Below are positions 1,280 through 13,464 of a stretch of DNA of 32,025 nt, in pieces (within the stretch, counting starts at the first letter, position 1; every line of letters starts with the position of its first letter). The position numbers and the translations under genes are program-made. The stretch is from an uncultured Eubacteriales bacterium (lineage in GTDB: Bacteria > Bacillota > Clostridia > Oscillospirales > Acutalibacteraceae), in the NCBI GenBank assembly GCA_900315715.1, contig ONAH01000066.1, positions 1-32,025 on the forward strand. The letters run 5' to 3'. The notes below the pieces were generated by a model. That model made no database searches. It was given only the letters and a program-made list of their open reading frames with translations, and was not told the DNA's origin.

Positions 1280-1696
1280 TTATTTCGCCTTACTCTCACA
1301 GTAAATACATCTGTATATTCTCTTTTCTCTGTCGGTAAGCTTGAAGATATGTTTTAACTCCTGTTCTTCCTGAGAGATACATCTTGGGTTTTTGCACTTA
1401 ATAACATCAACAAGCTTTTCTGGGAGTTCCGGCATAAACTTGCTTGCAATAGTACCGTCTTTGATTATATTGACGGAAACACCCGGGTCAAGATATCCCA
1501 ACATATCTAAATCTATATCAATGAGAGTATCAATTTTAATAATGTCCTTTTGACCGTTTTTTGAACTTGGGGCATTTTTAATGATAGCGACGGTGCAGTT
1601 GAGTTTATCAAGTCCTAATTTTTGATAAAGCAACATACTCCTGCCGGAAGTGATATGATCAATGACAATACCGTTATTAATAGAATCTATAACCAT
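1280..1696 (-). CDS. pyrI: Aspartate carbamoyltransferase regulatory chain
   Basis: This is the non-catalytic zinc-binding chain that assembles with PyrB and carries nucleotide allosteric control of aspartate transcarbamoylase. Its 138 residues are slightly shorter than the E. coli chain of about 153. The four zinc cysteines are clear: C101 and C106 (CKNPRC) and C130 and C133 (CIYC). The N-terminal nucleotide-binding part contains GIVIDHI and an LGL turn typical of the family. The start codon abuts the pyrB stop (TAA then ATG), and the SD (GGTGGAG) lies inside the end of pyrB, which implies translational coupling and a matched subunit ratio. It is the last gene before the operon terminator. 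Having PyrI predicts an enzyme under feedback control, unlike the unregulated PyrB-only enzyme of Bacillus. Confidence 0.96.
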   Translation of the reverse strand: MVIDSINNGIVIDHITSGRSMLLYQKLGLDKLNCTVAIIKNAPSSKNGQKDIIKIDTLIDIDLDMLGYLDPGVSVNIIKDGTIASKFMPELPEKLVDVIKCKNPRCISQEEQELKHIFKLTDREKRIYRCIYCESKAK

Positions 1697-2611
1697 TTAC
1701 TCCACCCCCAAAAGCATAAGAATTAAAGCCATACGCATATATTTGCCGTATAAAACTTGTTTAAAATAGCATGCACGTTGGTCGTTATCAACGGCTACGG
1801 ATATTTCGTTAACTCTTGGCAGCGGATGCATAACAGCAAGATCGTCTTTTGCTGTTTCAAGCTTGTCAGGAGTAAGAATGTAGCTGTCTTTCAGTCGAAT
1901 ATAATCCTGTTCATTGAAAAATCTTTCTCTCTGTACACGTGTCATATAAAGAATATCAAGATCAGGCATAGCAGCAAGGAGATCGGTAGTTTCGGAGTAC
2001 GGAATGTTTTTCTTTTTCAGAACATTATTTACTACATACTCAGGCAATTTTAATTCATCAGGAGAGATAAGAATAAACTTAATTCCGCTGTATCTTGACA
2101 ATGCGTTGATAAGAGAATGTACCGTTCTACCGAACTTTAAGTCACCGCATAAACCGACAGTAAGATTATCAAACCCACCTTTTTCACGGTAGATAGTGAG
2201 AAGATCGGCAAGTGTCTGTGTAGGGTGATTGTGACCGCCGTCACCGGCATTGATAATAGGAACACTTGCTGCCATAGATGCAACCATAGGGGCGCCTTCT
2301 TTAGGGTGACGCATAGCGATGATATCAGCATAGCAGGAAACGGTTTTCACAGTATCAGAAACGCTCTCACCTTTAGCGGCAGAAGAATTGTTTGCAGCGG
2401 AGAAACCGATGACATTACCGCCAAGCTCATACATAGCGGCCTCAAAGCTCAGACGAGTACGAGTTGATGGTTCAAAGAAAAGAGTAGCAAGCTTTTTTCT
2501 TTTACATTTCTCAGCATACTTATCAGGATTATCTATTATATCACACGCAGTATGTATGAGATTATCAATTTCCTCCGTGGATAAATCGAGAATATCAATT
2601 ACACTTCTCAT
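1697..2611 (-). CDS. pyrB: Aspartate carbamoyltransferase catalytic chain
   Basis: Condenses carbamoyl phosphate with L-aspartate to N-carbamoyl-L-aspartate, the committed step of pyrimidine synthesis. Its 304 residues are the normal length. Visible motifs are [13 protein letters not shown] around residues 45-57 (carbamoyl-phosphate loop), the AKGES segment around 79-83 (flexible loop lysine shared between subunits), HPTQTLADL near the middle, and VMHPLPRV near residue 265. The start ATG overlaps the upstream pyrE stop by one base (TAATG), and AGGAG lies about eight bases before it. The gene is followed without a gap by pyrI, which fits a PyrB-PyrI holoenzyme. No missing key residue was seen. 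Confidence 0.97.
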
Positions 2612-3903
2612 TATGCTTCTCCTATCCAGCTTTCATCGGACGGATTGTTACGGAATTTAATAAGTTTTTCCTTATCCTCAGGCTTAATATAACCCTGTTC
2701 TGCAGCAACATCAGCGATAACATCAAGGTTAGTAAGGCTGATATTTTTAACATTAGCAGCATTAAGTCTGTCGATACCCTTCTGCATACCGTATGTAAAG
2801 ATACTTGCAATACCAAGTACCTCAGCACCAGCATCACGAAGAGCATTAACAACCTCAATAACGCTGCCTCCTGTTGAGATAAGATCCTCAATTACAACAA
2901 CCTTCTGACCTTTTTCAAGTTTACCCTCAATCTGATTACCTCTGCCGTGATCCTTAGCGCCTGAGCGAACATAACCCATAGGAAGATTGAGGATAGTAGC
3001 AGTTATAGCAGCATGAGCGATACCTGCAGTACTTGTTCCCATAAGAACTTCACACTCAGGGTAGTTTTCTTCAACAACTCTTGCAAGAGCGTTTTCTACA
3101 TCATCTCTGACTCTTGGTGCAGAAAGTGTAAGTCTGTTATCGCAGTAAATAGGGCTTTTAATACCGCTTGCCCAAGTAAAAGGCTCCTGAGGTCTTAAAA
3201 AGACAGCGTTTATAGATAACAGATCCTTAGCAATAATTCTCTCCATAGTAAAAACTCCTTTTAATAAAAAATTTTCCAAATTATCAACAGTATCAATAAT
3301 ATAATCTGCATGATACTCAATGGCTTCTTGAAGATTGCCGTAACCATAGAGTATGTAAGCACATTTTATTCCAATATCATTAGCACCAAGCACATCATGT
3401 TTCCTGTCGCCAATCATCAAGACATCTGAAAGGTCAGAAACACCTGCCTTATCAAGAGCATATTTAATAACTTTAGCTTTAGTGTTTCTTTCCTCATCAA
3501 GAGTACTGCCGGCGATAACGTCAAAACAATCAGAAACGCCGAAATTTTCAATTATCCTAACAGCAAAAACCTCAGGTTTTGAAGTAGCGAGAATAACCTT
3601 TTTTCCGCATGATTTCAGTTTGCGAAGCAGGCTTTTAATACCGTCATAGATACAGGCTTCATTAATTCCCTTGTCGGTATAATACTCACGGTACAGCTTA
3701 ATACCTCTGTCAATTTGTTTTTCATCGAAGTTGTAAAACTCCTTAAAAGATGAGGAAAGGGGAGGACCAATAAATTTTTTAAGTGAAGCCTTATCGGATA
3801 CCTCAAAACCCATATTACATAAAGCATAATAAACAGAGTTTATGACACCTTCTGCGGAGTCAGCGACTGTACCGTCCAAGTCGAACAGAATATATTTATA
3901 CAT
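2611..3903 (-). CDS. pyrE: HAD-family phosphatase fused to orotate phosphoribosyltransferase
   Basis: One open frame of 430 residues joins two enzymes. Residues 1-217 are a haloacid-dehalogenase phosphatase of the phosphoglycolate phosphatase/pyrimidine nucleotidase type: FDLDGT gives nucleophile D8 and acid D10, ATSKP is motif II, and MIGDRKHD is motif IV. Residues 220-430 are a full-length PyrE, which converts orotate plus PRPP to [18 protein letters not shown] is the catalytic loop near 313-327 and [13 protein letters not shown] is the PRPP motif near 335-347. A strong SD, AAAGGAG, encoded in the linker (3255-3261) precedes ATG 3246, so a separate 211-residue PyrE could also be made. The fusion start at 3903 has hardly any SD. 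The HAD substrate is unknown; a nucleoside monophosphate is plausible from context. Confidence 0.9.
3244..3261 (-). promoter_or_regulatory. Internal ribosome binding site and ATG for stand-alone PyrE
   Basis: On the minus strand AAAGGAG (3255-3261) lies eight bases before ATG (3244-3246), in frame with the HAD-PyrE fusion. The same bases encode Leu-Leu-Lys-Gly-Val in the linker between the two domains. It is a much better initiation site than the one at 3903, so PyrE may be made mostly from here. Confidence 0.7.
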
Positions 3904-3915
3904 AATACTAACCAG

Positions 3916-4614
3916 TTAGCCGACAAAGTCAGCAACACAGCGTCTGTAAGCGGCAACAGGATCATCAGCCTGAGTGATAGGACGTCCGACAACGATATAA
4001 TCTGAGCCTATCTCACGAGCCTTGGCAGGGGTAGTAACACGAACCTGATCACCAATATCACCGTCAGCGAAACGAACACCCGGAGTAACGGTAACGAAAT
4101 CATTTCCGCAAATATTATGAACCTTAGCAGCTTCAAGCGGGGAGCAAACAACACCGTCAAGGCCGGCTTTTTTAGCGTTCAAAGCGTAGTGCATAACAAC
4201 TTCATCAATAGGCTTGTTAATGAGAAGTTCTTCGTTCATACGTTCCTCACTTGTAGAGGTAAGCTGAGTAACTGCGATAAGTAAAGGGCGAGTACCGTCC
4301 TCTCTGGTGAGACCTTTAATGGCAGCCTCCATCATAGAGATAGTTCCTGCAGCGTGGAGGTTACACATATCAACATCAAGTTTAGAAAGAACATTCATAG
4401 CCTTCATAACAGTGTTGGGAATATCATGCAGTTTAAGATCAAGGAAAATTTTATGTCCCATGGCTTTAATTTCTTTAACGATCTCAGGGCCAGCTGCGTA
4501 GAAAAGTTCCATACCTATTTTTACGAAAGGTTTTTCCTCAGTAAACTTTGAAAGAAAACTAATAACCTCTTCTTTGCTGCTGAAATCGCAGGCAATAATA
4601 ACATCACGTCCCAT
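3916..4614 (-). CDS. pyrF: Orotidine 5'-phosphate decarboxylase
   Basis: Catalyses OMP to UMP, the last step of de novo synthesis. Its 232 residues match the short bacterial (type I) family. The catalytic DxKxxDI signature is [11 protein letters not shown], giving D59, K61 and D64; K32 in FVKIGMELF is the companion lysine. TPGVRF and YIVVGRPIT near the C terminus form the phosphate-binding part of the TIM barrel. The start overlaps the pyrD stop by one base (TAATG), with GGAGG about nine bases upstream inside pyrD. Twelve bases separate its stop from the HAD-PyrE gene, so the last two enzymes of the pathway are encoded side by side. Confidence 0.97.
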
Positions 4615-5525
4615 TAGTGTGAACCTCCTATAATATCTGATAGATTTTCTATATGATACTGCTCCATAACACGTGGCAGTTCATCAATAATATTTTTGCA
4701 AGCACAGGGATTAACAAGATTTGCAGCACCAACCTGTACTGCAGTAGCACCTGCTAGCATCATTTCTATTACATCACGAGCAGTCGAAACGCCGCCCATG
4801 CCGATAATAGGTATAGATACAGCTTCATAAACCTGATATACCATTCTAAGGGCAACAGGAAAGATTGCCGGCCCAGAAAACCCGCCCATTTTATTTGCGA
4901 TAACGGGCTTTCTTGTTTTGAGATCTATTCGCATACCCAAAAGAGTATTAATAAGGCTGATACCATCGGCGCCGCCATTTTCGCAGGCTTTTGCAATTGA
5001 AGCAATGTCAGTAACGTTTGGGCTAAGCTTAATATAAACAGGTTTAGTAGTAACAGCTTTTACAGCTTTAGTGACCTCATATGCTGATTCAGGTGTTGTG
5101 CCGAAACTCATCCCTCCATTGTGAACGTTAGGACAGCTAATATTAACTTCAATCAAGCCAACCTGTTCCTGTGAGTCGATTTTCTCACAAGCAAAGGCAT
5201 AATCTTCGATAGAGAAACCGCTGATATTTGCGATAACAGGTTTGGAATAGACCTTAGCTAGTTTGGGAAGTTCTTCGCTGATAACTTTGTCAACACCAGG
5301 ATTTTGCAGACCAACTGAGTTAATAAGACCTTGAGTACATTCTGCAATACGAGGAGTAGGGTTGCCGAAACGTCCCTCTCTTGTAGTACCCTTGCAGGAA
5401 ATAGAACCAAGAATATTGATGTCATATATGTCTGCAAATTCATAACCAAACCCAAATGTACCGCTTGCAGGAATCACAGGATTATCAAGCGAAAGACCGC
5501 TGAGAACAACATTAGTGTTTACCAT
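4614..5525 (-). CDS. pyrD: Dihydroorotate dehydrogenase, class 1B catalytic subunit
   Basis: Oxidises dihydroorotate to orotate on FMN and passes electrons to PyrK, finally to NAD. It is 303 residues long, typical for class 1B. The class 1 catalytic base is cysteine 131 in [12 protein letters not shown]45 in SCKGTT and K166 in IKLSPNV contact FMN, and [10 protein letters not shown] with GATAVQVG form the phosphate site at the C terminus. There is no N-terminal membrane helix, so the enzyme is cytosolic. It overlaps the end of pyrK by seven bases, and its SD (GGAGG) lies inside pyrK, so the two subunits are translationally coupled. The pairing with pyrK excludes the class 1A fumarate-linked and class 2 quinone-linked types. 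Confidence 0.97.
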
Positions 5526-6253
5526 ACAATTTCCTCCTTTTCGAGTACAGGACCGTCTTTGCAGATACGCTTGTTACCGTACTTAGTTTTACAGGAGCAG
5601 CCCATACAAGCACCAAATCCGCAGCCCATTCTTTCTTCAAAGCTGAATTGACCGCTTGTGTTTGTAGCATCGTAAACAGCCTTAAACATAGGCATAGGAC
5701 CGCATGTGTAAAAATATGAATAATCCCCAACAAGTTGGAAAGCGTCGGTAACAAACCCTTTAATACCGTATGTTCCATCGACAGTAGTGATAAACACGTC
5801 TGCACCGAGTTTGTTGAAGGATTTCTCAAAGAAAACTTCGTCTTGAGAATTAAATCCGAGGATAACAGCAGGCTTTGCACCTTGTTCGATAAGTTTTTTA
5901 CAGAGATTGTAGAGAGGCGGAACACCAACACCGCCACCGATAAGCAAGGGTCTTTCTCCGGCTTTAGATAGATCGTACCCGTTGCCGAGACCGGTCAGAA
6001 TATCAAGATTGTGATAAGCCTCAAAGCGGCTCATCATTTCAGTACCCTGACCAACGACCTTATAAATAATAGTGATGGTGTTTTCATCATAATCGCAGAT
6101 AGAGATAGGTCTGCGAAGATAAAAACCGTCAAGTTTAATATTAATAAACTGACCGGGAGCAGTTATTGAACTTGTGTCGCCGCCGATTATCATTTTATAG
6201 ACATCTTTAGCAATTTTAATGTTTGATAAAACAGAGTAGATACCTTGATACAT
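5519..6253 (-). CDS. pyrK: Dihydroorotate dehydrogenase B electron-transfer subunit
   Basis: This FAD and [2Fe-2S] subunit moves electrons from PyrD to NAD. Its 244 residues are the normal length. The ferredoxin-reductase fold is shown by RRPISICDYD (FAD binding, around 48-56), the Gly-rich GGGVGVPPLY (pyridine nucleotide side, around 107-115), and CGP at 184-186. The iron-sulfur ligands are C211, C216, C219 and C231 in the pattern CGFGACMGC followed by RICKDGP. A good SD (GGAGG, six bases before ATG) lies in the 19-base gap after the dockerin/amidase gene. Its stop falls within the first codons of pyrD. Confidence 0.96.
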   Translation of the reverse strand: MYQGIYSVLSNIKIAKDVYKMIIGGDTSSITAPGQFINIKLDGFYLRRPISICDYDENTITIIYKVVGQGTEMMSRFEAYHNLDILTGLGNGYDLSKAGERPLLIGGGVGVPPLYNLCKKLIEQGAKPAVILGFNSQDEVFFEKSFNKLGADVFITTVDGTYGIKGFVTDAFQLVGDYSYFYTCGPMPMFKAVYDATNTSGQFSFEERMGCGFGACMGCSCKTKYGNKRICKDGPVLEKEEIVW

Positions 6254-6272
6254 AATTACCTCCGTTTGTTAT

Positions 6273-7433
6273 TTATTCAAGAGAACCTATAATAGTTTCT
6301 TCCGTTTCGTAAATTTCCTCATTAAGAAGTTGTTCAACATCATTTCTGAAGTCGTCCATAGTTTTATTGTGAAAAATGAACCAGTGATCCGGATCGTTGT
6401 GTTTAGTTCCGATACCCATCTGACCGGCTTCGTAGTGACTGATGATTTGATCAGTATCGAAATCATAAGTGTAAGCAAGATAAGCAGCATAAACAGTGGC
6501 ATTTTCCCAAATCTTATCGAAATATTTCTGTTGTTCTTCTGTATTATACTTTGTGATATTCCAGTTTTTATCATACTCAAATCCAGCAGGTTCACAAATT
6601 TCAAAGTCTATTCTTGTGTCATTGACGGGAATACCTGCATGCCAAGCAGTTTGTTCAAACGGGAGATACTGATAAACGCCTTCATCGTCAAGAAAAGCAT
6701 GAACACATGCAGGAGTACCGCCCTTATTCCACATAGAATACCATTGATCAGCCTTTATACCTGGTTCAGCAGTAGAGTGTACAACCAAACCGAGAATATT
6801 ATCAAAGTCATAAGTTTCGCTGTAACAGTCATTATATATCATAATTTCTTTGGTGCTTTTGAGAGTATGTTCTCCGACATGGATAATTTTTTCTGTTTTA
6901 TTATTGACGACAGTAACATTACATTCTGCAGTCAAACCATTTGAAGCCTTAACGACAACGTGATCAGTTCCGAGATGGTAACCTTTCACAAGACCGCTTG
7001 CATAAGATACTTCAAGAACAGGTTCCCCGGTTCCGTCATCAGAAACAGCACCGTCAAAAGTATAAGTGTAGGTAAGTCCTTTGTCGCTTCCGTTAATAAC
7101 TTTAGGATTAAGAGTAGTTCTGTCCCCGCAGTTAATGGTAATTTCTGAGGGGAGATAGAGCATAGGGACATTAAGATTAATAGTGCTTCTAAGAATAAGA
7201 AGAGCATCAACATTAGTGATTTTTCCATCATTATTATAGTCAGCAGAAGCTTGTTGTACATCATTAAGCTTGGTAAGTCCAACCGTATGTCTTTGAACAA
7301 GAAGTGCATCTGCCGAACTCACCTTACCGTCACCGTTTATATCTCCCTTTAAAAAACTATCAGCAAATGCAGAAAGGGTTGATAGTGATAGTATGACAGA
7401 CGCAGAGAGTATAGTAGAAATAAATTTTTTCAT
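6273..7433 (-). CDS. Exported dockerin-containing N-acetylmuramoyl-L-alanine amidase
   Basis: Predicted secreted peptidoglycan amidase of 386 residues. The start is ATG 7433, because AGGAG lies nine bases before it and a signal peptide follows at once (MKKFISTILS, hydrophobic core, cleavage near AFA at 22-24); the longer frame from TTG 7454 adds a non-signal extension. Residues 30-87 are a type I dockerin with two calcium loops (DINGDGKVSSAD at 31-42 and DYNNDGKITNVD at 65-76). Residues 95-177 look like an Ig-like domain. Residues 185-360 are an amidase_2 domain, with likely zinc ligands H219 (VVHST), H265 (WHAG) and H350 (NDPDHWF). A dockerin at the N terminus is less common than at the C terminus. 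It sits 19 bases upstream of pyrK, inside the pyr cluster, with no metabolic link apparent. A cohesin partner is not in this window. Confidence 0.88.
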   Translation of the reverse strand: MKKFISTILSASVILSLSTLSAFADSFLKGDINGDGKVSSADALLVQRHTVGLTKLNDVQQASADYNNDGKITNVDALLILRSTINLNVPMLYLPSEITINCGDRTTLNPKVINGSDKGLTYTYTFDGAVSDDGTGEPVLEVSYASGLVKGYHLGTDHVVVKASNGLTAECNVTVVNNKTEKIIHVGEHTLKSTKEIMIYNDCYSETYDFDNILGLVVHSTAEPGIKADQWYSMWNKGGTPACVHAFLDDEGVYQYLPFEQTAWHAGIPVNDTRIDFEICEPAGFEYDKNWNITKYNTEEQQKYFDKIWENATVYAAYLAYTYDFDTDQIISHYEAGQMGIGTKHNDPDHWFIFHNKTMDDFRNDVEQLLNEEIYETEETIIGSLE

Positions 7434-7554
7434 TAATAAATTCTCCTGTATCAATAAGTATTACCACACATAAATAGTTTGTATAAAAGACTTCAAATCC
7501 ATTTGGAGCAGAAGATGTTAAGATTATTACAAAGGAGACAACGCTATTTCTTTT

Positions 7555-7582
7555 GTAATCGATTATAACTGTAACCGATTAC
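7555..7582. promoter_or_regulatory. Tandem cre/LacI-family operator-like sites
   Basis: Two near-palindromes with a central CG lie 16 bases apart centre to centre: GTAATCGATTAT (7555-7566) and GTAACCGATTAC (7571-7582). The second, with flanks, reads TGTAACCGATTACT and fits the catabolite-responsive consensus TGNAANCGNWNNCW; the first misses one position. Each has one mismatch from perfect dyad symmetry. They lie about 120-150 bases upstream of the dockerin/amidase start. Binding by CcpA or another LacI-family regulator is inferred, not shown. Confidence 0.5.
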
Positions 7583-7726
7583 TTCACTGCCAAATCAAAA
7601 AGGCGATAAATACAGCGGTATAAGCGAAAATTCGTTTGTCAAAGAGATAGTTTGTGAATACTGCTAATACTAAAAAACAGTTTTATAGTATTGTCAATTA
7701 ATCCACTTATCTATTATTTAACGAAA

Positions 7727-7812
7727 CACTGATTAAATCAAGTGTCCAAATCCTCATAAAAAGCTAAAAACAGATTTGGACGCTCAGCCCGTTGGCAGAG
7801 ATTTAATCAGTG
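7727..7812. repeat. Compact three-stem inverted-repeat element
   Basis: An outer perfect 13-base inverted repeat, CACTGATTAAATC (7727-7739) and GATTTAATCAGTG (7800-7812), encloses a second perfect pair, GTCCAAATC (7744-7752) with GATTTGGAC (7773-7781), and a small hairpin CTC-A-GCC/GGC-A-GAG (7783-7800) closed by CGTT. The inner stem extends by a G-C and a U-G pair only on the plus-strand RNA. The whole folds as a Y with a three-way junction. It could be a structured RNA or a small mobile repeat with terminal inverted repeats. I could not assign it to a known riboswitch class. Confidence 0.6.
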
Positions 7813-7866
7813 AATACGAATTTATCAACCTAAGCAAATATCATCTTCAGTCAGACAAAAATGCTT

Positions 7867-10800
7867 TTACATATCAATAGTTGAAATACAAAGTGTAGTT
7901 TCTTCAAGAACGTCAAGTAATGCCCTAACAGTATCAAGAGCTGTAAATATAGCTACATTGTTTTCGACAGCCCAGCGTCTAATGCGATAACCATCGTGGC
8001 TGTTTTCATGGTAGATATCCTTAGTGTTAATAACATAGCTGATATAACCTGATTGGAAAGATGAGAAAATATCGTCATTTTCATCAAGCTTCTGTCTAAC
8101 TCTTGTTCTTATTCCGTGACTCTTAAGGAACTGTGCAGTACCCTCAGTAGCCTCAATGTTAAATCCAAGGTTATAGAAACGTCTGATTAGCGGGAGTGCT
8201 TCCTCTTTATCAACATCAGCAATAGTAGCGAAAACTGTACCGTAATTAACCATTTTTGTACCTGAAGACTGTAAAGCTTTATAAAGAGCTCTGGTAAGTG
8301 TGTTATCATATCCGATAGCCTCTCCGGTAGATTTCATTTCAGGTGAGAGGTAAGCATCAAGACCACTTAGTTTAGAGAAGGAGAAAGCAGGTGCCTTAAC
8401 ATACCAGCGTTCCTTTTCCTTAGGATAAACAACATCAATACCTTGTTCTTTAAGGCTTTTGCCAAGAATAGCCAGAGTAGCAATATCTGCAAGAGAATAT
8501 CCGGTAGCTTTTGATAGGAATGGAACAGTTCTTGAAGAACGAGGATTTACTTCGATAACATAAACATCATTGTTCTTATCTACAATAAACTGAATGTTAT
8601 ACAGACCAACAATACCGATACCAAGACCAAGTTTAACAGTGTAGTCGATAATAACGTCTTTGACCTCCTGAGGAATAGTGAAAGACGGATACACACTTAT
8701 AGAGTCACCGGAGTGAATACCGGTACGTTCAACATGTTCCATGAGTCCAGGGATAAATACACCTTTTCCGTCGCATACAGCATCAACTTCGCACTCTTTG
8801 CCTACAATATACTTATCAACGAGTACAGGTTTATCCTCATCAACCTCAACTGCGGTTTTAAGGTAATGTCTAAGCATATTTTCGTTTGCAACGATCTGCA
8901 TAGCACGGCCGCCAAGTACATAACTGGGGCGAACCAGAACTGGGTACCCGATATCAGCAGCGGCCTTAACGCCGTCCTCAATATTAGTAACAGCCTGACC
9001 CTTTGGCTGAGGAATTTTAAGCTCCTCCATGATTTTTTCAAATGAATCACGATTTTCAGCCTTTTCGATAGCCTCAACATCAGTACCGATAATCTTAACT
9101 CCTCTTTTCATAAGAGGTTCGGCAAGGTTAATAGCAGTCTGACCGCCAAGAGAAGCGATAACTCCCTCAGGTTTTTCGAGTTCAATAATGTTCATAACAT
9201 CTTCAACAGTAAGAGGCTCAAAATAAAGCTTGTCACTTGTTGTATAATCTGTTGAAACGGTTTCAGGGTTGTTGTTGATGATGATAGCTTCATAGCCGTT
9301 GTTTTTAATAGTAGCAACAGCGTGAACTGTGGAGTAGTCAAACTCAACACCTTGACCGATACGGATAGGACCGGAACCAAGAACGATAATCTTCTTTCTG
9401 TCGCTAACAATAGACTCATTTTCCTGTTCATATGTTGAGTAGAAGTAAGGAATATAGGATTCAAACTCAGACGCACAGGTATCTATCATTTTGTAAACAG
9501 GGAACATACCCAGTTTTTTTCTGAGATAATAAATATCGTCCTCAGTAGTTTTCCAGAGTTTTGCGATATATTTATCAGAGAAGCCCATTCTTTTTGCACG
9601 ATAAAGAGCATCGGTATCGTCTTTATTCTCAGCAACTATACGCTCAAACTCAACGATATTTTTGATCTTCTCAAGGAAGAACATATCGATTTTAGTAATA
9701 TTGAAGATTTCTCTCAAATCGATTCCGTTCCAGATAAGCTCAGCAATAGCGTAAATTCTGTCATCGGTACCCTTGCGGATATAATCGAGAAGGTCATCGT
9801 TAGACATATCATTGAACTTTGGTTTATAAAGATGATATACACCGATTTCGAGAGAACGTACAGCTTTGAGCAGGCTTTCCTCAAAAGTTCTGCCGATACT
9901 CATGACCTCTCCTGTTGCTTTCATCTGAGTACCGAGTACGTTTGAGGCATCAGAGAATTTGTCGAAAGGAAACCTTGGCATTTTAGTAACAACATAGTCA
10001 AGAGTAGGTTCAAAGCTTGCAGGAGTGTTAGCAATCTGAATTTCATCGAGTGTCATTCCAACTGCAATTTTAGCGGAAACTCTTGCGATAGGATAGCCGC
10101 TGGCTTTTGAAGCAAGAGCAGATGAACGTGAAACTCTGGGATTTACTTCGATAAGATAATAATCAAACGATACAGGATCAAGTGCAAACTGAACGTTACA
10201 GCCACCTTCAATTTTAAGGGCACGAATGATTTTCAATGCCGAGTCACGAAGCATGTGGTATTCTTTGTTAGTAAGTGTCTGACTTGGTGCAACAACGATA
10301 GAGTCGCCGGTATGAATACCAACAGGATCAAGATTCTCCATGTTACAAATAGTAATAGCTGTATCGTTAGCATCTCTGATTACTTCGTACTCTATTTCTT
10401 TAAATCCTTTAACGCTTTTTTCTACAAGAACCTGATGAACAGGGGAGAGTTTAAGTGCATTTTTCATTATTTCGACGAGTTCTTCTTCGTTATTAACGAA
10501 ACCGCCGCCGGTACCTCCAAGAGTAAAGGCAGGACGAAGAACGACAGGATAACCGATTTCCTCAGCAGCTTTAAGACCCTCTTCTATTGAGTGAGTAATG
10601 ATAGATGGGAGAACAGGTTCACCGATTTCTTCGCATAACTCTTTAAACAATTCTCTGTCCTCTGCTCGTTCGATACTTTCTACCTTAGTACCAAGGAGTT
10701 CGACCTGGCACTCTTCGAGAACGCCTTTTCTTGCAAGTTTCATAGCAAGGTTAAGACCTGTCTGTCCGCCAATACCCGGTACAATAGCGTCCGGACGCTC

Positions 10801-11040
10801 ATATCTGAGAATTTTAGCCATATATTCAAGTGTAAGCGGCTCCATATAAACCTTATCTGCAACAACAGTATCAGTCATAATAGTTGCAGGGTTAGAGTTA
10901 CATAGAATAACCTGATACCCCTCTTCACGCAGAGCAAGACAAGCCTGAGTACCTGCATAGTCAAATTCAGCAGCCTGACCAATAACGATAGGACCGGAGC
11001 CTATAACCAAAACCTTTTTAATATCACTTCTCTTAGCCAT
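7867..11040 (-). CDS. carB: Carbamoyl-phosphate synthase large subunit
   Basis: Makes carbamoyl phosphate from bicarbonate, two ATP and ammonia supplied by CarA. Its 1057 residues and internal duplication are typical: the first ATP-grasp half starts at [17 protein letters not shown] (around 14-30) and the second at [16 protein letters not shown] (around residue 555). Each half has an IEVNPR metal/ATP segment. The last 130 residues are the MGS-like allosteric domain. Its SD, AAGGAGG, lies within the end of carA, and one base separates the two genes. It is followed by the 433-base gap that splits the pyr cluster. No frameshift or missing motif was seen. Confidence 0.98.
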
Positions 11041-11041
11041 A

Positions 11042-12130
11042 TTATTTGTCCTCCTTCATGAAACCAATGAACTTGTTAAACAGGTATGAGCTGTCCTGTG
11101 GTCCCGGTGCGCTTTCAGGATGATACTGCACACTGAATACTTTATCTTTTTCGCAGGAAACTCCTTCAACAGTGTTATCAAGAATATTGATGTGAGTTAC
11201 GGATAGATCAGTGTTCTTAATGCTTTCGGTATCGACAGCGTAGTTATGGTTCTGGCTTGTTATTTCGATTTTTCCTGTTTCAAGGTTCTTTACAGGGTGA
11301 TTTCCGCCTCTGTGACCGAATTTCAGCTTATATGTTTTAGCACCGTAAGCTAAGTTAATGAGCTGATGACCAAGACAAATACCAAATATAGGGTATTTAC
11401 CTCTGAGTGCTCTTACAAGTTCGATAGTCTCAGGAACATCCTCAGGGTTGCCCGGACCATTTGAGAAAAACACACCGTCGGGATTAAGTTTTTCAATCTC
11501 TTCAGCTTTAGTGTTATAAGGTACTACCGTAACATTACAGCCAAGCTTGTTAAGACTTCTGATAATGTTAAGCTTAATACCGCAGTCAACAGCAACAACC
11601 TCAAGTTTCGGGTGAGCGGTACGAGAATACCATTTTTTCTTACAGCTAACCTTTGAAACAGCGTCTGTGGGAATACTTGTTGTACGGAGAATATCCATAC
11701 ATTCTTCCAAAGGCTTGTCAGCGTCAGTGATAAGCACCTTACAACAGCCGTTGTCTCTGATTTTTCTGGTAAGGAGTCTTGTATCAATACCGGAAATTCC
11801 GGGAATTTCATAATCCTCAAGAATTTCGTCAAGAGTTTTTGTATATCTGAAATTAGACGGTATATTATTATATTCACGAACGATCAAGCCACCGATAGTA
11901 GGAGTTTTAGTTTCGAAGTCGTCATCAGCAATACCGTAGTTGCCGATAAGTGGATATGTCATAACAACCATTTGATAAGTATATGACGGATCCGATACGA
12001 TTTCCTGGTAGCCTACCATGGAAGTATTGAATACAAGTTCGCAAACTTTATCGCAGTTATGACCGAAGCCTGTACCAAAGAAAACGCTTCCGTCCTCCAG
12101 TACGATTTTTCTGTTGTTTATTGTTTCCAT
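11042..12130 (-). CDS. carA: Carbamoyl-phosphate synthase small (glutaminase) subunit
   Basis: Hydrolyses glutamine and channels ammonia to CarB. It has 362 residues, the usual length. The N-terminal CPSase_sm domain includes [13 protein letters not shown] and [11 protein letters not shown]. The C-terminal class I glutamine amidotransferase domain has [11 protein letters not shown], the nucleophile elbow GICLGHQ, and the His-Glu of YHPESAPGP. The start ATG 12130 overlaps the end of pyrC by 13 bases, with AAGGGGG upstream inside pyrC. It sits between pyrC and carB, so arginine synthesis would share or duplicate this enzyme; no arginine genes are in the window. Confidence 0.97.
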
Positions 12131-13374
12131 TTTATTTCCCCCTTAACAATTGTCATTACGCACTTGCCGTAAACCTCCATGCCTTCAAAAGGAGTTGCAC
12201 GCCCCATAGAAAGAAAGTCATCGGGATTTACTACGTATTTATCATCAAGCTTCCATACGCATAGATTCGCAGGAAGTCCTTCTTTAATCTCGTTGTTCAT
12301 TCCGAAACGTTTGCCGGGATTAATGCTCATAAGCTCAATGAGCTTTTCCAGAGAAACAACATTTTTTTTAACAAGATTTGTATATAGCACAGGGAATGCC
12401 GTTTCCAAACCGACAACACCCATAAGGCTTTTCTCAAGACCTTTCGATTTCTCCTCCTTGCTGTGGGGCGCATGATCAGTGGCTATCATATCGATAGTAC
12501 CGTCTTTAATGCCATTGATGAGTGCAATTCTATCTTCTTCGCTTCTGATAGGAGGGTTCATCTTGAATCTTCCGTCCTCTTGAAGCATACTGTCATTAAA
12601 AACAAGGTAATGCGGACCTGTTTCACAAGTAATGTCGACACCATTATTCTTAGCTTGTCTAATAAGCTCAACGCTTTCTTTTGTAGAAATATGACAAACG
12701 TGATACTTACAGCCGCTTTTAGCGGAAAGCTCAATGTCACGTTTAATCTGTCCCCATTCGCTTTCAGAGCAAATACCTTTGTGACCATGTGTCTTAGCAT
12801 AATCACCGTCATGAATATATCCGCCATTAAGAAGATCATTGACTTCGCAATGAGCGGCAATGATTTTGTTAAGTGATTTAGCCTTTTTCATAGCCTCAAG
12901 CATCATATCATCACTTTGTACACCTTTGCCGTCATCAGAGAAGGCAACAGCAAAATCGTTCATACCATCCATGTCTGAGAGAATGTTTCCTTCTTCATTA
13001 ACGGTAATGGAACCATAAGGATGTACGTTAATAACAGCGTCCCTATTTATAATATCAGTCTGTACCAGAATATGTTCAACACTATCCGGAACAGGATTAA
13101 GATTGGGCATTGAACAAATGTCAGTATAACCTCCATGTGCTGCTGCAAGTGAACCTGTTTTAATTGTTTCTTTATACGAAAAACCCGGTTCTCTTAGATG
13201 TACATGAACATCAATAAAACCGGGAAAAATGAAACAATTATTAAGATCAATAATGTTACAATCAGCAGAAAGGCCGGTACCAACAGAAACAATTTGCCCG
13301 TCGCAAATAAGAATATCTTTTTTGCTAATAGCAGAATTGTGAAAAACCATAGCATTCTTCAGCAAATAGTTCAT
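12118..13374 (-). CDS. pyrC: Dihydroorotase (class I)
   Basis: Interconverts N-carbamoyl-aspartate and dihydroorotate. It has 418 residues, as in Bacillus-type class I enzymes. Zinc-binding residues are visible: H57 and H59 in DVHVHLREPG, H175 in AHCE, H228 in CHIS and D300 in ATDHAPHS. D148 in FSDDGK takes the place of the carboxylated lysine found in other amidohydrolases. It is the first gene of the operon. The leader from the predicted transcription start is only about 55 bases, with an AAAGGGG site nine bases before ATG. It overlaps carA at its 3' end. Confidence 0.97.
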   Translation of the reverse strand: MNYLLKNAMVFHNSAISKKDILICDGQIVSVGTGLSADCNIIDLNNCFIFPGFIDVHVHLREPGFSYKETIKTGSLAAAHGGYTDICSMPNLNPVPDSVEHILVQTDIINRDAVINVHPYGSITVNEEGNILSDMDGMNDFAVAFSDDGKGVQSDDMMLEAMKKAKSLNKIIAAHCEVNDLLNGGYIHDGDYAKTHGHKGICSESEWGQIKRDIELSAKSGCKYHVCHISTKESVELIRQAKNNGVDITCETGPHYLVFNDSMLQEDGRFKMNPPIRSEEDRIALINGIKDGTIDMIATDHAPHSKEEKSKGLEKSLMGVVGLETAFPVLYTNLVKKNVVSLEKLIELMSINPGKRFGMNNEIKEGLPANLCVWKLDDKYVVNPDDFLSMGRATPFEGMEVYGKCVMTIVKGEIKWKQ

Positions 13375-13435: not shown

Positions 13436-13464
13436 ATTTTATCATTTTAGACAAAGCTTGTCAA
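13436..13464 (-). promoter_or_regulatory. Promoter of the pyr operon
   Basis: On the minus strand TTGACA (13459-13464) is followed by a 17-base spacer and TAAAAT (13436-13441). Transcription would start near 13429, leaving a leader of about 55 bases before pyrC. That leader is too short for a PyrR attenuator and contains no PyrR-box-like AGAGAGG sequence or terminator. Control is therefore more likely at the promoter itself. Confidence 0.8.

Follow-up and report, generated by a model that had tools for sequence, protein, structure and literature searches.

Several dockerin-bearing proteins related to wall degradation have been described in ruminococci. According to the descriptions given in one review, lysozyme activity was reported for the cellulosome of R. 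champanellensis (Morais 2016, as cited in PMC6403190), and further dockerin-bearing wall hydrolases come from a rumen set (Bensoussan 2017, as cited in PMC6403190); the term 'lyticome' was put forward in the same review. RflaF_05439 of R. flavefaciens combines a dockerin with an NlpC/P60-like module that resembles peptidoglycan peptidases (PMC3573020). In the R. bromii amylosome, a system of few cohesins, dockerins, anchored scaffoldins and dockerin-bearing amylases, the published dockerin enzymes belong to GH13 (PMC5814915).

The gene analysed here encodes a predicted exported amidase with a dockerin. As far as the descriptions in PMC6403190 go, it resembles the wall hydrolases of ruminococcal cellulosomes in being a secreted peptidoglycan hydrolase with a dockerin, encoded in a cohesin-bearing ruminococcal genome, but differs from them in its Amidase_2 domain, in the N-terminal position of the dockerin and in the location of its gene, which lies either within the pyr operon or after upp. 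It differs from RflaF_05439 in fold, which is cysteine peptidase-like there and that of a zinc amidase here. The genome also shares the general make-up of the R. bromii amylosome, including alpha-amylase and CBM26 proteins with dockerins, but the dockerin enzyme in question is an Amidase_2 rather than a GH13 protein. The enzyme type is largely known, and the new part is its repeated pyrimidine neighbourhood; our literature search found no paper in which a dockerin amidase is connected with upp or pyr genes. As an explanation of the whole, to which we give an even chance of being correct, we propose that a dockable wall amidase, ancestrally part of a upp unit, moved once into the pyr operon and is expressed there by growth-linked read-through.

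The amidase gene and its product

The stretch of DNA analysed (the window; 32,025 nucleotides) is the whole of contig C49 of a 2.25-Mb assembly in 241 contigs (G000), the closest named relatives of which are the rumen assemblies RUG10651 and RUG14234 (uncultured Ruminococcus). The features discussed below are as follows; gene starts, the signal peptide and membrane helices were judged by eye from the sequence.

1280..13374, minus strand: pyr operon, pyrC-carA-carB-[amidase]-pyrK-pyrD-pyrF-HAD/pyrE-pyrB-small gene (Pfam; gene order in congeners)
13436..13464, minus strand: best promoter-like site, upstream of pyrC, TTGACA-17-TAAAAT (11/12, TG before the -10; consensus match only)
7867..11040, minus strand: carB, upstream neighbour, 433 bp from the amidase gene (Pfam)
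7727..7812, minus strand: hairpin between carB and the amidase gene, arms CACTGATTAAATC/GATTTAATCAGTG and GTCCAAATC/GATTTGGAC, no T run after it
6273..7433, minus strand: dockerin-amidase gene, 386 aa, ATG at 7433, TAA at 6273-6275 (translation, Pfam, orthologues)
7362..7433, minus strand: signal peptide, about residues 1-24 (MKKFISTILSASVILSLSTLSAFA), by eye from the sequence
7194..7349, minus strand: type I dockerin, residues 29-80, two EF-hand-like loops, DINGDGKVSSAD and DYNNDGKITNVD (Pfam Dockerin_1, PDB dockerins)
6906..7172, minus strand: beta-rich linker, about residues 88-176 (conserved in the alignment; low-confidence model)
6309..6875, minus strand: Amidase_2 catalytic domain, residues 187-375 (Pfam, invariant columns, fold comparison)
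Within the Amidase_2 domain: putative Zn ligands H219, H333 and D347; putative catalytic residues E278 and H345
5522..6253, minus strand: pyrK, downstream neighbour, 19 bp from the amidase gene (Pfam DHODB Fe-S binding, NAD_binding_1)

We take the last small gene of the operon to be pyrI, from its position and general knowledge. The original prediction described an exported Amidase_2 protein with an N-terminal type I dockerin, encoded 19 bp before pyrK and codirectional with the pyr genes, and the sequence agrees with it in each of these respects. The gene occupies exactly 6273-7433 on the minus strand, which also carries all of the pyr genes, and the 19 bp between its stop codon and the ATG of pyrK contain the GGAGG of pyrK. 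Both domains score well above their Pfam cut-offs: Dockerin_1 (PF00404) at residues 29-80 with an E-value of 2.4e-12 and 47.3 bits against a cut-off of 22.9, and Amidase_2 (PF01510) at residues 212-348 with an E-value of 1.2e-15 and 58.5 bits against a cut-off of 26. The dockerin region is also matched by the PDB dockerins 2ccl/1ohz (E about 5e-6), both of its calcium loops read DxNxDGxxxxxD, and the hydrophobic N-terminus is kept in all orthologues in the alignment. The linker is probably Ig-like; the Pfam search of the protein returned no match at residues 88-176.

The structure model (mean pLDDT 56.8 overall) is confident for the amidase domain only, and its use is confined to that domain. 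The fold of residues 187-375 is close to those of the staphylococcal AmiA/AmiE, XlyA, PlyL, PlyP100 and LytA (VIA Z 13.4-14.9; for 4knl, Z 14.5 over 155 residues at 2.6 A), and Foldseek matched the amidase model to 3lat (E 1.7e-7). The AmiA/AmiE autolysins and the XlyA/PlyL/PlyP100 endolysins (4knl, 3lat, 3rdr, 1yb0, 9htu) thus have the fold in common with the present domain, at 18-24% identity. Wall targeting in these enzymes is provided by repeats or SH3-like domains, instead of which a dockerin is attached here. Five residues, H219, E278, H333, H345 and D347, are invariant in 18 aligned orthologues, and the same five are invariant in endolysin-like relatives from viral contigs that are about 44% identical. 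In the alignment with XlyA, E278 falls on the glutamate of its IGIEIC motif and H219 is also matched; the roles of H333, H345 and D347 are presumed from family knowledge, a literature search on the active-site residues of AmiA having returned nothing. With its Pfam match, its solved-amidase fold and these invariant residues, the protein looks like a genuine AmiA/XlyA-type N-acetylmuramoyl-L-alanine amidase with an intact active site, which upholds its earlier identification as a cell-wall amidase; peptidoglycan cleavage is its predicted activity.

Three other readings were considered and rejected. The amidase domain is endolysin-like and has 59 relatives on viral contigs, but vertical inheritance of the whole protein within the genus and the pyr genes on either side of its gene speak against phage cargo. 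A recently acquired foreign gene is not indicated by base composition, the GC content (0.376) and GC3 (0.282) of the gene being close to the values of its neighbours. Nor is the gene a solitary oddity of one genome, as orthologues occur in 20 of the 22 genomes of the genus.

Cohesins and dockerin-bearing wall hydrolases in the genus

The docking on a cohesin scaffold that was originally predicted calls for cohesins in the same genome. We found five cohesin matches there (four above the cut-off and one weaker) next to 54 dockerin matches, and cohesins are present in all 22 genomes of the genus, so that the lack of cohesins which would have refuted the original prediction is not seen. Three single-cohesin proteins of this genome, two from adjacent genes on contig C72 and the third from C241, have a hydrophobic helix at the C-terminus, suggesting that they are membrane-anchored, and a protein on C33 contains two cohesins and one dockerin. 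Since the cohesins include such small, apparently anchored ones, docking of the amidase at the cell surface is plausible. Under the explanation that we prefer, the exported amidase would use its N-terminal dockerin to plug into cohesins on the cell surface, the small membrane-anchored ones among them, and would trim peptidoglycan there.

Within the genus, the amidase is one of a few kinds of dockerin-bearing wall hydrolase, alongside CHAP and GH24 proteins. CHAP proteins with dockerins occur in 17 of the 22 genomes. Seven GH24 proteins of the lysozyme type were found in the genus, each with a dockerin; their seven carriers are exactly the six species with the amidase gene in the pyr operon plus G021. 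Dockerin-bearing wall hydrolases are therefore ordinary in this genus. The original prediction had treated a dockerin on a wall enzyme as unusual, a surprise that is only partly justified in view of these CHAP and GH24 proteins and of the precedents in PMC6403190.

Other dockerin proteins of the same genome include a GH24 lysozyme with Big_2 and SH3_3 domains, a CHAP protein, a CAP protein and an S41 peptidase (L013/L224, L023/L256, L035 and L007). A 1097-aa poly-dockerin frame (G000:C159:106-3216; L014, L016, L030, L032) has about ten dockerin modules in tandem and a weak LRR_5 match. An Amidase_2 protein with a C-terminal rather than an N-terminal dockerin (L147, L148) is encoded in g70, another genus of the family, which suggests an independent fusion. 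In Ruminococcus sp. FMBCY1, our query was matched by dockerins only, not by an amidase.

Gene order and history of the amidase locus

Among the 20 orthologues, 19 consist of signal peptide, dockerin and amidase, and the twentieth is cut by a contig end. Conservation of this protein is far beyond chance. In G003 (L110 8531-10046), a frameshift or assembly error has put the dockerin and the amidase into different frames, on either side of a TD-rich repeat linker.

The amidase gene lies directly before pyrK, at a short distance, in six species, namely G000, G008 (RUG10651), G003, G017 (RUG14234), G006 and G001, and carB is located upstream in all five of them in which the upstream side is on the contig. 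The gene is thus codirectional with, and inside, the string of pyr genes in 6 of the 22 genomes, all from one clade. This retained position, together with the recurrence of a pyrimidine neighbourhood behind upp described below, bears out the embedding in the pyr operon that had been predicted. The same prediction asked whether relatives have carB directly followed by pyrK, and they do: the pair is unbroken in all 22 testable other genera of the family, with gaps of 13-165 bp (mostly <42 bp), and in eight congeners without an insert the two genes are 73-290 bp apart, a much wider gap than in most other genera. Six further outgroup loci lack carB within 1.5 kb and have pyrC in its place. The amidase gene is therefore a newcomer between carB and pyrK. 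Outside the genus, no pyrimidine gene was found within about 1.5 kb of amidase genes in 17 loci.

Three congeners have unrelated genes in the same slot, namely five small ones of unknown kind in G018 and G009 and two in G020 (L112 7896-10245, L113 4070-6355, L114 4947-7294), indicating that it accepts inserts in general. A small conserved ORF of about 119-129 aa separates carB from the amidase gene in G008 and G003 (L036 7583-7942; L110 about 8098-8487) but is absent from the window, and the HAD-pyrE junction of the operon has likewise been opened in congeners.

In seven other species (G007, G010, G013, G002, G012, G004 and G005), upp, the gene for the uracil phosphoribosyltransferase of uracil salvage as called by equivalog match, lies directly 5' of the orthologue, co-directional and with a gap of 20-70 bp, and the amidase genes behind it mostly have a ribosome-binding site. 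G016 probably has the same pair, across a contig break. The pair occurs in at least three wider neighbourhoods, at the typA side in G007/G010, in G004/G005/G016 and in G002/G012, where gene identities, including the typA-like one, were assigned by reading rather than by profile. Only in six genomes does the amidase gene lie away from pyrimidine genes, and our search found upp in none of these; wherever upp and the amidase gene occur in the same genome, the latter stands in one of the two pyrimidine contexts (only probably so in G016). A Fisher test of context against upp presence gives 1.8e-4, a value that ignores relatedness and the trivial need of upp for upp adjacency and is not to be read as a probability. 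Overall, upp was not found in eight congeners, seven of which keep the amidase; the genomes are mostly fragmented assemblies and this absence may partly reflect incompleteness, but five of the eight are >=95% complete. In G020, the amidase gene is still near the gene cluster that adjoins the upp-amidase pair in G007.

When rooted with an outgroup, the tree of Pyr proteins unites the six species with the pyr context in one clade (bootstrap 100), whereas species with the upp context fall on either side of the root (the deep split of the genus is less well supported, at 75-89). The amidase tree unites the same six species. Since the upp context occurs on both sides of the root and the pyr context in one clade only, there was apparently one move from the upp unit into the pyr operon, and the simplest history consists of an ancestral upp-amidase unit, this one move and several losses of upp. 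In the explanation proposed above, the amidase gene would ancestrally have been second in the upp-amidase unit, and would have entered the once tight carB-pyrK junction in the ancestor of the six-species clade.

The gene may also be a neutral passenger, which landed by chance in a permissive carB-pyrK site and borrowed a steady housekeeping transcript there, its earlier place behind upp being likewise incidental. We take this reading seriously, at a probability well short of even. It accords with the filling of the same slot in G018, G009 and G020, with the extra ORF in G008 and G003, with the parting of HAD and pyrE in congeners and with the location of the amidase gene elsewhere in six genomes. 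It does not readily account for a pyrimidine gene beside the amidase both before and after the move, for the persistence of the upp-amidase pair in several different neighbourhoods, or for the restriction of all genomes with both genes to the two pyrimidine contexts, G016 again being a probable case.

The upp-amidase unit also raises the possibility of attack and salvage, in which a surface 'lyticome' of the amidase and the dockerin-bearing CHAP and GH24 proteins would lyse neighbouring bacteria and Upp would salvage the uracil released. The ancestral unit itself, the three types of dockerin-borne wall hydrolase in the genus, and the R. champanellensis lysozyme activity and 'lyticome' idea, as described in PMC6403190, are consistent with this. 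However, a move into the operon for de novo UMP synthesis is ill-suited to salvage, and seven of the eight congeners in which upp was not found retain the amidase; we consider the idea highly improbable.

Transcription of the locus and a possible pyrimidine link

Neither the 433-bp gap behind carB nor its hairpin figured in the original prediction. The stretch 7690-7830, which holds this hairpin, has a folding energy of -37.1 kcal/mol (z -3.7), and hairpins after carB reach z-scores of -4.5 to -10.8 in six of the seven congeners tested, the one in G004 being weak. At L036, L110, L111, L116, L117 and L122, their sequence has changed while pairing was kept, and a T run is absent. Because they lack a T run, these hairpins are not typical terminators; they may be structures of mRNA ends or processing.

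A promoter of its own in the 433-bp gap could drive the amidase gene and the genes from pyrK onwards, with the hairpin ending or separating the upstream transcript. The length of the gap, the hairpins after carB in most congeners checked and a weak promoter-like site at 7741-7713 on the minus strand would suit such an arrangement. This site matches at only 9/12 positions, though, promoter-like sites occur near chance frequency (33 found against 23.8 expected), the hairpins are not of the terminator type, and congeners without the insert have pyrK after the hairpin in the usual pyr gene order. We therefore regard an independently transcribed amidase gene as rather unlikely, and read-through from pyrC into it, as in the preferred explanation, as likely. 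With the amidase gene probably read through from the pyrC promoter, its output would follow the growth-linked, UMP-making transcript.

Regulation by UMP in particular is a further claim. No PyrR scored above the cut-off in a profile search of the 22 genomes, and no Rfam element matched at gathering score within the window; attenuation by PyrR and membership in a PyrR regulon were rejected on these grounds. In its overall interpretation, the original prediction is upheld as to the fold, the cohesins and the recurring pyrimidine neighbourhood, but its proposed tie between amidase expression and UMP synthesis is not supported, given the unrelated genes in the slot, the hairpin after carB, the lack of PyrR matches and the six congeners with the gene elsewhere. 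What speaks for a pyrimidine link is that the gene has had two different pyrimidine neighbourhoods in turn, with short gaps in both; UMP-specific coupling is possible. A fuller version, in which a surface-docked set of peptidoglycan hydrolases includes an amidase under pyrimidine-linked expression, first via upp and then via pyr, and wall cutting follows UMP and hence the supply of UDP-sugar precursors, appears unlikely to us; its argument from UMP to wall precursors is an inference. The plain reading is that steady transcription linked to growth benefits a wall enzyme.

A functional pyrimidine link would mean that a wall hydrolase is coupled to nucleotide supply, which is rare, and that cohesin-dockerin assemblies reach beyond the digestion of food to the upkeep of the cell's own wall. 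In the neutral case, too, the gene of a secreted enzyme has been relocated into a core biosynthetic operon, with the states before and after both represented in the sampled species.

Within the same operon, a single 430-aa frame (window 2611-3903, minus strand) encodes a HAD phosphatase domain with PyrE fused behind it; several congeners have them as separate genes, <=1.3 kb apart.
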